A stretch of DNA of 55,976 bases, from the NCBI GenBank assembly GCA_028285415.1, contig JANQPF010000016.1, forward strand, positions 1 through 55,976, read 5' to 3'. Shown piece after piece: positions 3,540 through 54,930 of this stretch. How positions within the stretch are numbered: position 1 is the stretch's first letter; every line of letters starts with the position of its first letter. Below the pieces are notes generated by a model that had not been told where the DNA came from, did not search any database, and was given only the letters and a program-made list of their open reading frames with translations. This stretch comes from Pseudomonadales bacterium (GTDB lineage Bacteria; Pseudomonadota; Gammaproteobacteria; Pseudomonadales; Azotimanducaceae). The position numbers and the translations under genes are program-made.

Positions 3540-4513
3540 GCAGTTCTCCCCAGGTTTCTGATGGTGTCGTGTGCAAAATTCTCCAAAGCGTAAGCCACCC
3601 GGTCTTCAATCGCCATCTTTCGCGTGTCCAGGCTTTCGACGTGGGTGAGGCGCGGCAGGAGCCCGGCGTTGTTGGCAATCTGGATGGACAGTCCAGGGCG
3701 TGCATTCAGCTCGAGAATCAGCGGTCCACGGCGCCGGTCGATGACAATGTCCGCGCCGAGATAGCCGAGGCCCGTCACCTCGTAGCAGCGTGCGGCAAGA
3801 TGCAGCAGCGCCTCCCAGTCAGGAATGGTGATGGCGCTGAGATCCGCGCCCGTATCCGGATGCTGGGTGACGAGATCGTTGTGCTGTACCGCCTGGATGG
3901 CGCGCCCCGTGCCGATATCGAGCCCCACGCCGATGGCGCCCTGGTGCAGATTGGCTTTGCCGTCCGATGATTTGGTGGCCAGGCGCAGCATCCCCATGAC
4001 GGGGAAGCCTTTGAAAACGATGAGACGGATGTCGGGGACACCTTCGTGGCTGAACTGATCGAAGTAGGGGCTGACCCGGACGAGCGTTTCCAGGAAGGCG
4101 ACATCCGTACGCCCGCCGAGCGAGTGCAGACCGGAGAGCGTATTCGTCAGATGCCGCTGGACAGCTTCGAGGCTGATCAGCTCGCCGCTTGCCTTCCGGT
4201 ACTGGTCCTCCTCCTGCCCGACGACCACCAGAATGCCTTTGCCGCCGCTGCCCTGCGCGGGCTTGGCGACAAACTCCTTGAGATCCTTGAGCTTGTCACG
4301 CACCTGGGCGATCTCGTGCTGGGTGCGGACGACGCCAATGAGATCCGGCACCGCAAGCCCGGCTTCGGCGGCAATCAGCTTCGTCGTGAGCTTGTTGTCG
4401 ACCAGCGGATACTTCTCGCGCTCGTTGTACCGGCCGATATAGACGACGTTGCGGCGGTTCATGCCGAGCACGCCCGTGCGCCGCAGCGACTTCGGCAGTA
4501 TCCAGCCGCTCAC
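3536..4513 (-). CDS. ATP-grasp ligase, alpha-L-glutamate ligase-like, 325 aa
   Basis: This is a predicted ATP-dependent carboxylate-amine ligase of the RimK-like ATP-grasp group. The N-terminal LGMNRRNVVYIGRYNEREKY and PLVDNKLTTK are typical of this subfamily. FVAKPAQGSGGKGILVV is the nucleotide-binding loop, and IVIDRRRGPLILELNARPGL holds the Mg-ATP acidic and Asn residues. I place the start at the GTG at 4513, which overlaps the TGA of the upstream 7TM gene by four bases (GTGA); the long open extension to 4756 lies inside that gene and has no family resemblance. It is the enzyme of the conserved trio with the transglutaminase-like membrane protein and the retropepsin-like lipoprotein. Confidence 0.9.
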   Translation of the reverse strand: MSGWILPKSLRRTGVLGMNRRNVVYIGRYNEREKYPLVDNKLTTKLIAAEAGLAVPDLIGVVRTQHEIAQVRDKLKDLKEFVAKPAQGSGGKGILVVVGQEEDQYRKASGELISLEAVQRHLTNTLSGLHSLGGRTDVAFLETLVRVSPYFDQFSHEGVPDIRLIVFKGFPVMGMLRLATKSSDGKANLHQGAIGVGLDIGTGRAIQAVQHNDLVTQHPDTGADLSAITIPDWEALLHLAARCYEVTGLGYLGADIVIDRRRGPLILELNARPGLSIQIANNAGLLPRLTHVESLDTRKMAIEDRVAYALENFAHDTIRNLGRTA

Positions 4514-52489: not shown

Positions 52490-52519
52490 TTGGTGTTGTA
52501 TGGCGCAGCAGCCTATAGT
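52490..52519 (+). promoter_or_regulatory. possible sigma70 promoter of the repeat lipoprotein gene
   Basis: TATAGT at 52514-52519 is a good -10 element; TTGGTG at 52490-52495 is a weak -35 with an 18-base spacer. The start would lie near 52527, giving a short leader with AAGGAGA before the ATG at 52563. The gap from 52422 holds this and little else. Confidence 0.4.
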
Positions 52520-52562
52520 TTGCCGACCAGTTCAGGCTGGACCATTAGATAAGGAGAATGAA

Positions 52563-52946
52563 ATGGCGCTGATTAAGAATTTGACGTGGCTGTTGGTATT
52601 GGTGGGGGTCGTTGCATGTGGGCAATCCAATGACGGCGGCATGTCGGATGCGGTGGATGAAGCGGGTGAGGCAGGCAGCGGTCTGATGGACAGCGCCAGC
52701 GATGCCATGAACGAAGCCGGCAACATGCTCGATGACGCGGTTGATGGCGCATCGGACATGGCTGACGATGCGGTTGATGCGGCACAGGATATGGCTGACG
52801 ACGCGGTTGATGCGGCTCAGGACATGGCTGATGACGTCCAGGATGCCGGCAGCGAAATGCTGCAGGACGCTGAAGACGCCGTCAATGACGGCATGGACGA
52901 CGCCACAGGTGAGCTGGACGATGCGCTGGAAGGATTCAAGAAGTAA
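52563..52946 (+). CDS. acidic lipoprotein with 11-residue repeats, 127 aa
   Basis: The signal peptide ends VVAC, with the lipid-attached Cys at residue 19. The mature part is extremely acidic, rich in Ala, Asp and Met, and from residue 55 consists of 11-residue units (MLDDAVDGASD, MADDAVDAAQD twice, MADDVQDAGSE, MLQDAEDAVND). Such hendecads favour long amphipathic helices, as in LEA-like and apolipoprotein-like proteins. AAGGAGA lies six bases before the ATG at 52563, which decides the start. A terminator follows at 52986. It is probably an abundant small envelope protein of unknown function. Confidence 0.75.
   Translation: MALIKNLTWLLVLVGVVACGQSNDGGMSDAVDEAGEAGSGLMDSASDAMNEAGNMLDDAVDGASDMADDAVDAAQDMADDAVDAAQDMADDVQDAGSEMLQDAEDAVNDGMDDATGELDDALEGFKK
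52725..52889 (+). repeat. five tandem 33-bp coding repeats
   Basis: Five in-frame 33-bp units at 52725, 52758, 52791, 52824 and 52857 encode the hendecads of the lipoprotein. Units two and three encode the same 11 residues with a few silent changes. Copy number may vary between strains. Confidence 0.8.
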
Positions 52947-52985
52947 CGCGCGGCAATTTGCTCAAATAACTCTCTTGCAAGAAAA

Positions 52986-53010
52986 GGGCGCCTCTGAGGC
53001 GCCCTTTTTT
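52986..53010 (+). terminator. rho-independent terminator of the repeat lipoprotein gene
   Basis: GGGCGCC and GGCGCCC form a perfect 7-bp stem around TCTGA, followed by six T residues. Four A residues precede the stem, so it can also end minus-strand transcripts from the glutathione peroxidase gene, whose stop is at 53027. Confidence 0.9.
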
Positions 53011-53026: not shown

Positions 53027-53506
53027 CTACAGATGGTCGGCAAGTCCTGCGCCGATCTCCTCCGGTGTCGTCGGGGGTGCAAACCGAGCCAGCACCGTGC
53101 CGTCGCGTCCGACCAGGAACTTGGTGAAGTTCCACGGGATGTCCGCGTTACCCTCATCGTCTGCCTTGGCGGATTTCAACAGGTTGTAAAGATCGCAGGC
53201 GCCGTCGCCGTTCACTTCGATCTTTGCAAACATTGGAAAGTTGACGTCGTAGTTCGACGTCGCAAATTCCAGGATCTCCTCGTTGCTGCCGGGCTCCTGT
53301 GCGCCGAACTGGTTACATGGGAAAGCCAGCACGGTGAAGCCCTGGTCACTGAATTGTTCCTGCAGAGTACGCAACCCGGCGTACTGGGGAGTGAGGCCTC
53401 AGCGGCTGGCGACGTTGACGACCAGACAGAGCTGGTCCCGGTAGGTCGAAAAATCGACGGCGTTGCCGTTGATGTCAGCCATCGTGAGGTCGTGAAATTG
53501 AGTCAT
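53027..53506 (-). CDS. selenocysteine-containing glutathione peroxidase, 159 aa with in-frame TGA at codon 36
   Basis: The enzyme reduces hydrogen peroxide or organic peroxides with a thiol donor. The frame from the ATG at 53506 (GAGGGAG seven bases upstream) reads LCLVVNVASR, then TGA at 53401-53399, then GLTPQYAGLRTLQEQF in the same frame to a stop at 53027. The TGA sits exactly where glutathione peroxidases have Cys or selenocysteine. The other catalytic residues are present: Gln70 in CNQFGAQEPG and Trp125-Asn126 in IPWNFTKFLVG. A SECIS-like hairpin follows the TGA. Automated callers would split it into two fragments. The length of about 160 is normal. No sel genes are in the window. Confidence 0.88.
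53366..53385 (-). promoter_or_regulatory. bacterial SECIS-like hairpin downstream of the TGA
   Basis: On the coding strand AGTACGC and GCGTACT form a perfect 7-bp stem around CGGGTT. The stem begins 13 bases after the TGA, so the loop lies 21-26 bases after it, within the range known for bacterial SECIS elements, and a G is near the 5' side of the loop as usual. It would bind SelB and direct selenocysteine insertion. Confidence 0.65.
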
Positions 53507-53745: not shown

Positions 53746-54930
53746 ATGCGCGACGTAGTCATTGTTGACAGTGTAAGAACCGGGCTGGCGAAGGCTTTCC
53801 GCGGCAGCTTCAACCTAACCCGCTCGGACGACATGCTGGCTCACTGCATAGACAGCCTGATCGACCGCAACGACAAAGTCAGCCCTGACGAAGTTGAGGA
53901 CGTTGTCGTCGGTGCGGCAAGCCATGCTGGTGAACAGGACGGCAACCTGGCGCGTCTGGCCGTCATTCTGTCCAAGCTGCCGGTCACGAGCGCGGGTGTC
54001 ACCATCAACCGCTTCTGCTCTTCGGGCCTGCAGTCCATTGCCATTGCGGCCAACCAGATTGCCTCCGGACAAACCCAGGTGGCCATTGCCGGTGGGGTAG
54101 ATTCGATTTCCATGCGCACGCGCCAGGAACCTGGCAAAGCCGCCCAGAACCAGCGCCTGCTCGACGAAAAGCCCGACATTTTCATGGCCATGGGCAACAC
54201 GGCAGAAGTGGTGGCGCGCCGCTATCAGGTCACCCGTGAAATGCAGGACGAGTACGCGCTGCAGAGTCAGCAACGCTATGCGGCTGCGGTCGAGGCGGGC
54301 AAAATTGCTGAAGAGATTGTGCCGATGCAGGCGACCATGCTGAAGGTCGACAAAGAAACGGGTGAAGAAAGTCACGTGGAAGTGACGGTGGACAAAGACG
54401 AATGTAACCGTCCGACCACAACCCTCGAAGGCCTGGCATCGCTGCCGCCGGCATTCGAAGATGACGGCTCCGTGACCGCGGGTAATGCCTCGCAGCTTTC
54501 CGATGGTGCGTCGATGACAATGCTGATGAGCGCGGAGCGCGCGGCACAGCTCGGCATCGAACCGCTGGGCATTTACCGTGGCTTCACGATTGCCGGCTGT
54601 GAGCCGGACGAAATGGGCATTGGCCCGGTCTTTGCCATTCCACGGCTCCTGGAGAACGCAGGTCTCAGTCAGGACGATATTGATCTCTGGGAGCTCAACG
54701 AAGCGTTTGCCTCACAGTGTCTGTACTGTCGTGATGCGCTGGATCTGCCGAACGAGAACTACAACGTCCTCGGCGGCAGCATCTCCATCGGCCATCCGTT
54801 TGGTATGACCGGCTCCCGTCAAGTTGGACTCGTGCTGCGTGAGCTGCAGCGCCGCAAGCAGAAGTACGGCGTAGTGACGATGTGCATCGGCGGTGGCCAG
54901 GGCGCTGCGGGGCTTTTCGAAGCCGCCTGA
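53746..54930 (+). CDS. acetyl-CoA C-acyltransferase (thiolase), 394 aa
   Basis: This enzyme splits 3-ketoacyl-CoA with CoA in beta-oxidation, or the reverse. The nucleophilic Cys91 lies in [18 protein letters not shown], the His in [19 protein letters not shown] and the C-terminal Cys in [14 protein letters not shown]. Length and motifs fit the FadA-like group. GAGGAG precedes the ATG. No fadB-type gene is adjacent, so it may be the thiolase of a specialised pathway or work with partners elsewhere. It ends before two strong inverted repeats. Confidence 0.94.

Follow-up and report, generated by a model that had tools for sequence, protein, structure and literature searches.

An in-frame UGA very probably read as selenocysteine in a glutathione peroxidase gene of a Pseudomonadales bacterium

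A glutathione peroxidase (GPx) gene in the window (the whole stretch of DNA analysed here, 55,976 nucleotides) very probably encodes a selenoprotein, most likely a one-selenol peroxidase, in which the UGA at codon 36 is read as selenocysteine (Sec). Judging by sequence comparison, the gene most likely yields a working, peroxide-destroying selenium enzyme, and Sec GPx looks to be the usual form in the family to which the window organism belongs. The first-pass annotation had proposed that this TGA is decoded as Sec, and the proposal is supported both by Sec machinery in the assembly and by a TGA and hairpin that are kept in relatives. The window is the entire contig C29 of an assembly of 5.97 Mb in 34 contigs (99.03% complete, 3.19% contaminated). 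Its features around the GPx gene are as follows.

53027-53506, minus strand: putative Sec GPx gene, ATG to TAG, 159 residues including Sec36; the TGA form also occurs in 57 relatives
53399-53401, minus strand: in-frame TGA (UGA in the mRNA), codon 36, probably read as Sec; a Cys codon is aligned there in 79 Cys-type homologues
53366-53385, minus strand: SECIS-like hairpin with a 7-pair stem (6 pairs conserved), loop CGGGUU at 53378-53373, 20 bases from UGA to loop
53514-53522, minus strand: plausible ribosome-binding site, purine-rich GAGAGGGAG, 7 bases upstream of the GPx ATG, read by eye
52982-53004, minus strand: terminator-like hairpin GGGCGCCT-CAG-AGGCGCCC followed by TTTT, 3' of the GPx stop codon, read by eye

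Reading frame, catalytic residues and hairpin

The frame 53506-53027 (minus strand) had been described as open but for a TGA at the catalytic codon, which was confirmed from the sequence: the TGA at codon 36 is its sole internal stop (159 codons counting the TGA, with a terminal TAG), and with the TGA read as Cys the product matched Pfam GSHPx (PF00255) at 143.5 bits against a cut-off of 27. Among PDB sequences, 41 distinct ones matched the same read-through product at E <=0.001, the best at 1.1e-42, and almost all carry the name glutathione peroxidase. The catalytic tetrad that defines GPx consists of Sec or Cys, Gln, Trp and Asn. Its positions are occupied here by UGA36, Gln70, Trp125 and Asn126, the last three being intact as earlier claimed and invariant in 57 Sec-type and 79 Cys-type relatives. 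If the TGA is taken as a stop, the gene is split in two, with frames of 115 and 93 residues, so a gene caller unaware of Sec would break it, just as the first-pass annotation had expected of standard callers.

The 45 bases around the terminator-like hairpin fold at -24.5 kcal/mol; a pattern scan for terminators did not list this hairpin 3' of the GPx stop, and a promoter scan of the sequence found nothing. On the far side of the hairpin, and convergent with the GPx gene, 52500-52946 on the plus strand encodes a small protein that begins like a lipoprotein and contains repeats of DDAVDAAQDMA.

The geometry previously reported for the hairpin 3' of the UGA, a perfect 7-bp stem with a six-base loop starting 13 bases after the TGA, was borne out (AGTACGC-CGGGTT-GCGTACT, 53385-53366, minus strand). 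The bacterial SECIS model as set out in a passage of PMC13188914 has a loop of 3-9 nt, a stem of 4-16 bp, a G in the first two loop positions, a distance of 16-37 nt from the UGA and an MFE of <=-7.5 kcal/mol; the window hairpin agrees at every point (6 nt, 7 bp, G at loop position 2, 20 nt, -9.1 kcal/mol). The description of the hairpin as SECIS-like thus stands as regards geometry and agreement with the published model, but the fold stability of the single hairpin is no evidence for it: the 39-base stretch folds at -9.1 kcal/mol, the mean of its shuffles being -9.36 (z 0.11), and 103 of 200 shuffles were equally good. Above-chance stability in a single sequence is no part of the published SECIS definition, and the z of 0.11 does not exclude the gene from the bacterial selenoproteins, because conservation among relatives carries the case. 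A search of the whole window with Rfam at gathering score gave no matches, and a search of 53200-53506 at E <=10 returned one chance-level lncRNA model on the other strand.

The UGA codon, the hairpin and the resolving cysteine among relatives

Codon 36 was TGA in 27 and TGC or TGT in 53 of the stretches retained from a scan of our collection (the best 80 of 578 confirmed GPx stretches). A draw of 194 genomes from the order gave a GPx match in 160 and an inside TGA in 4 among the matches listed, namely the own genome, two of the same genus and G003; all four fall within the 26 of 194 genomes that carry a tRNA-Sec of at least 63 bits. In a draw of 61 genomes from the family, 51 had a GPx match and 41 an inside-TGA match (the own genome, two of the same genus and 38 others), a count that rests on a one-TGA tag, with the codon itself checked in 30 of the 41. 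The earlier statement that most bacterial homologues use Cys therefore holds for the order draw but not for the organism's own family, where TGA is commoner. Likewise, close relatives with a Cys codon and no hairpin, which had been named as a test of the Sec reading, are not the rule, given the TGA in 41 of 61 family genomes and at least 5 of the 7 hairpin pairs in 58/58 Sec genes.

A tRNA-Sec of at least 59 bits was missing in six of the 41 TGA family genomes, and selB was over its cut-off in three of these six; the other three (91, 85 and 73% complete) had neither a tRNA-Sec at that score nor selB over cut-off. A tRNA-Sec of at least 59 bits is likewise present in 16 of the 20 family genomes that lack a TGA match, so co-occurrence within the family is weak evidence and Sec decoding in the family is independent of the GPx gene.

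The codon alignment comprised 137 loci, among them the window's own gene (L104) and 57 TGA relatives representing 52 distinct proteins. Codon 36 was TGA in 58 loci (window's own included), Cys in 79 and no other codon in any, proportions that are not frequencies because the loci were picked by similarity. In comparisons of the window gene with each relative, pN was lower than pS in 57/57 downstream of codon 36 (means 0.19 and 0.74) and in 56/57 upstream, all values being proportions rather than rates because synonymous sites are saturated in many pairs.

The hairpin was compared between the 58 Sec genes (window's own included) and the 79 Cys genes, with pairs counted over 50 distinct 42-base rows. 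At most 4 pairs form in 77 of the 79 Cys genes, the exceptions being L096 and L124 with 5 and 7 of 7. Among the Sec genes two pairs are altered on both sides, a compensatory change: pair 21-30 is G-C in 46 rows and A-U in 4, and pair 20-31 is C-G in 49 and U-A in 1. Pairs 17-34 and 22-29 are invariant, pair 18-33 is U-A in 42 rows and U-G in 8, and pair 19-32 is non-standard in 4. The conserved stem has six pairs, because the outermost one (A-U in the window gene) forms in 12 of the 50 rows. When one arm was slid by 1-3 bases, pairing fell from 88.0% to 0.9-63.7%. Across codons 41-46 the Sec genes hardly vary while the Cys genes do so more freely: CAG encodes Gln41 in 57/57 Sec genes versus 34 of 77 Gln-bearing Cys genes, Gly44 in the 57 Sec relatives is GGT (45) or GGG (12) and nothing else, and Arg46 occurs in 50/57 Sec proteins and 0/79 Cys proteins. 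The near-frozen synonymous sites together with the compensatory changes indicate that the hairpin is under selection as RNA.

SECIS loops in the 58 Sec genes (loci L024-L052, L104-L107, L134-L160) are AGGUCU in 45, CGGGUU in 12 and CGGGCU in 1. The window gene has the rarer CGGGUU, which differs from AGGUCU at 3 of 6 bases; all three differences are synonymous (GCA GGT CTG vs GCC GGG TTG), and CGGGCU is an intermediate. Because E. coli fdhF has GCAGGTCTGC with the loop AGGUCU after its UGA, the commoner loop, that of the 45 of 58 Sec GPx genes, is the fdhF apex, whereas the window gene has GCCGGGTTGC. On the GPx tree at least 6 changes of loop type are needed, with many forks weakly supported.

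This tree was built from 90 rows, the 58 Sec genes (window included) and a thinned 32 of the 79 Cys genes, with codons 36 and 41-47 omitted. The Sec rows and four Cys rows lie on one side of a branch with an SH-aLRT of 89, below the star level of 95, and Sec and Cys labels change 4 times, versus 26.4 in shuffles, with 2 of the changes forced by starred branches. Within the Sec clade the window row belongs to no starred set, and its nearest row, L134, is from another genus of the family. The window protein is 76% identical to that of another family genus and 70 and 68% identical to those of its own; being nearer to the other genus, the gene may have moved within the family. Pseudomonadales and other Gammaproteobacteria contribute Sec rows, as do Actinomycetota (10 rows, mostly Acidimicrobiales), and MAGs labelled Myxococcales and Alphaproteobacteria contribute one each; these single MAGs could be misbinned. 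Within the gammaproteobacterial Sec rows, eight of the 10 Actinomycetota rows form a group (support 85), and an Acidimicrobiaceae row, L042, is basal, an arrangement that suggests transfer of Sec GPx between Gammaproteobacteria and Actinomycetota in either direction. The row of family genome G217 is identical to that of OM182 bacterium MED-G24 (L035).

The Sec-type proteins also differ from the Cys-type ones at position 82, which aligns with a Cys in EEIAQFCQLNYG of PDB chain 3cmi (Peroxiredoxin HYR1) that we take to be the resolving cysteine. Resolving cysteines of GPx, bacterial ones included, are treated in a passage of PMC8614756, according to which bacterial enzymes can use thioredoxin and glutathione. 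Cys82 is present in 75/79 Cys-type versus 0/57 Sec-type proteins (Fisher p 5e-34, kinship uncorrected); in two Sec-type proteins, L041 and L043, position 88 is Cys instead. The four Cys-type proteins that lack it (L034, L108, L109 and L110) all branch within the Sec clade; a Cys stands at 79 in L109 and L110, and L034 retains the loop letters AGGTCT in a decayed 4-pair hairpin. SECIS-like remnants after Cys codons are mentioned for other families in part of PMC1794560. We consider these four genes likely to be Sec-to-Cys reversions.

Selenocysteine machinery and other readings of the UGA

The first-pass annotation had made the Sec reading depend on selA, selB, selC and selD, all of which are present in the same assembly. 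In a profile search of the assembly, contig C4 gave selA (523.4 bits, cut-off 267.9), selB (408.8 bits, cut-off 242.25) and tRNA-Sec (73.6 bits, cut-off 47; the runner-up tRNA match scored 45.2), in that order on one strand, and ARAGORN also called this tRNA as Sec with anticodon tca. Next to it on C4, 80 bases 3' of the tRNA-Sec (3568-3660), lies a phage-type integrase gene (Pfam; L021:2229-3488, minus strand), as if an integrative element had used selC as its target; C4 ends about 2.2 kb beyond. The selD domain was found on contig C21 (271 bits, cut-off 125) as half of a fusion protein.

L022:4016-6178, contig C21, minus strand: SelD fusion of 720 residues, the N-terminal half a pyridine nucleotide-disulfide oxidoreductase domain (Nterm_to_SelD) and the C-terminal half SelD

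Over the SelD half, identity to E. coli SelD is 36%, the GCGxK segment is aligned, and the active site reads CGGC. The Ndh-SelD fusion scored 454 bits against NCBIfam fusion_not_SelD, below that model's cut-off of 700, and against TIGR00476 selD it scored above that model's own cut-off. A passage of PMC2398784 describes Ndh-SelD fusions of the Cys type as common in marine samples.

Tetranucleotide distances to the window were 0.125 for C4 and 0.111 for the C21 stretch; the 22 own-genome loci, these two included, ranged over 0.11-0.26, and eight loci from other genomes over 0.30-0.54. SelA of C4 is 65% identical to that of the same-genus genome G179 and 44.5-49.5% to five others, and SelB is 54% and 50% identical to those of two same-genus genomes and 38-44% to four others.

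Other genes of the genome also carry a TGA within the frame. Seven of its 19 matches to PF00578 (AhpC-TSA) have a single inside TGA (loci L188-L194; G000:C24, C34, C2, C5, C23), each at an apparent thioredoxin-fold active site (SGUTIEC, GHWUPAC, VDWUPFC, ADWUPFC, ASWUGC twice, GLWUPPC). Two of the seven matched NCBIfam WAxxUGC_long, a model with Sec in its name, at 252.6 and 270.1 bits with U read as C, below its cut-off of 300. GPx and these seven genes likely make up a selenoproteome of at least eight. Three COX1 matches in the same genome (545, 389 and 227 bits) suggest that the organism respires oxygen; the COX1 family also includes related oxidases and reductases. A passage of PMC5029168 counts organisms with at least 6 selenoproteins as selenoprotein-rich and 78.3% of such organisms as anaerobes. 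Matches to the molybdopterin family, the expected place of a Sec formate dehydrogenase, numbered 8 across the genome, and all were free of internal stops. When the window was scanned for frames interrupted by TGA, 13 candidates overlapped ordinary frames by <50%. The GPx gene was not listed, being covered by a 177-codon antisense frame, and the scan is therefore of little value for judging whether the window has other selenoprotein genes.

Could the TGA be a recent nonsense mutation of TGC or TGT that has turned a Cys GPx into a pseudogene? It lies one base from either codon, and the hairpin taken singly is not unusually stable (z 0.11), but the same TGA stands in 57 relatives with 52 distinct proteins, pN remains below pS downstream of it in 57/57 comparisons, synonymous sites are frozen in the hairpin, the resolving Cys is absent and Sec machinery is found in the assembly. 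Because the TGA and the hairpin are conserved among relatives, such a mutation is for practical purposes excluded, and we would hold it extremely improbable. Near-cognate tRNA readthrough or a genome-wide reassignment of UGA would also keep the GPx frame open. However, 3 of 9 window frames checked end in TGA, including that of the neighbouring thiolase-like gene at 53746-54930 (the gene name is our own reading), so UGA is not reassigned as a whole. The TGA is at the redox residue in all eight genes examined, the hairpin is under RNA-level selection, and tRNA-Sec, selA, selB and selD are present, all of which argue against either mode of reading and make both together very unlikely.

The remaining alternative places the Sec genes on contaminant contigs and leaves the window organism unable to decode UGA. 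An estimated contamination of 3.19%, an assembly about twice the size of two same-genus genomes and the shortness of C4 (just 14,452 bases) would be in keeping with this, whereas the tetranucleotide composition of C4 and of the C21 stretch agrees with that of the window, SelA and SelB have their nearest homologues in same-genus genomes, and both same-genus genomes own a tRNA-Sec and a TGA-type GPx. We find contamination scarcely credible as an explanation, and the reading of UGA36 as Sec by the organism's own machinery is preferred.

Proposed enzyme cycle and relation to known systems

If UGA36 is read as Sec, SelB with GTP and Sec-tRNA-Sec would bind the hairpin at its apical loop when the ribosome arrives at the codon, and insertion of Sec would give the full 159-residue enzyme, in which Sec36 with Gln70, Trp125 and Asn126 would reduce hydroperoxides. 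Animal GPX4, which has Sec and no resolving Cys, runs a one-selenol cycle. With Cys82 missing from the window protein, an external thiol, for example glutathione, most likely reduces the oxidised selenium, unlike in Cys-type GPx with a resolving Cys, where an internal disulfide can form. We infer a one-selenol cycle for the Sec GPx, dependent on glutathione or some other external thiol.

A wider picture can be drawn tentatively, and as a whole we give it slightly less than even credence. The family would be selenoprotein-rich and oxygen-respiring, with Sec GPx as its inherited default; the gene would have passed together with its SECIS between Pseudomonadales and Acidimicrobiia and reverted to Cys several times without regaining the usual resolving Cys, and the block switch between AGGUCU and CGGGUU through synonymous codons would reflect a changed acceptance by SelB.

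Published accounts of bacterial Sec GPx go back to 2005, and the window gene joins a known group. A 2005 table (PMC1088965) has 5 unique sequences from the Sargasso Sea, the GPx row of a 2008 GOS table has 40 under a column whose header lies outside the excerpt (PMC2398784), Gpx of Treponema denticola is in a 2006 selenoprotein table (PMC1794560), and a 2026 review has an entry (PMC13188914). The window gene resembles these in carrying a bacterial hairpin immediately 3' of the UGA and, as we read it, Sec as the catalytic residue. It differs in that the passages on them do not name the window lineage, while the form was followed here in whole genomes and was the commoner one in the family draw (41/61). 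The earlier view of the Sec form as uncommon can be kept, but the form had already been described (PMC1088965, PMC2398784, PMC1794560). In the passages of the open-licence PMC literature that were consulted, no description was found of the family as selenoprotein-rich or of Sec GPx in Acidimicrobiia.

Animal GPX4 is of similar length and of the same fold family, and PDB chains so named match the window protein at E 2.2e-38 and weaker (8q8n_A). The window hairpin, however, lies in the coding region by the UGA, whereas eukaryotic SECIS elements are placed in 3' UTRs in the relevant parts of PMC13188914 and PMC1088965. Cys-type bacterial GPx (Pseudomonas and others) is 49-61% identical over 79 loci with the rest of the tetrad the same, and differs in having Cys36, a resolving Cys82 in 75/79 and no kept hairpin in 77/79.

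Sec GPx, earlier known largely from metagenome reads, is thereby given a whole-genome context in which the Sec form appears to prevail in one bacterial family. Sec genes with either loop and the likely Cys revertants form a natural series for testing both Sec-to-Cys exchange and loop recognition by SelB. Gene callers unaware of Sec would likewise break the seven other TGA-bearing genes of the genome. Its assembly (G000) measures 5.97 Mb, versus 2.8 and 3.0 Mb for the two same-genus genomes.
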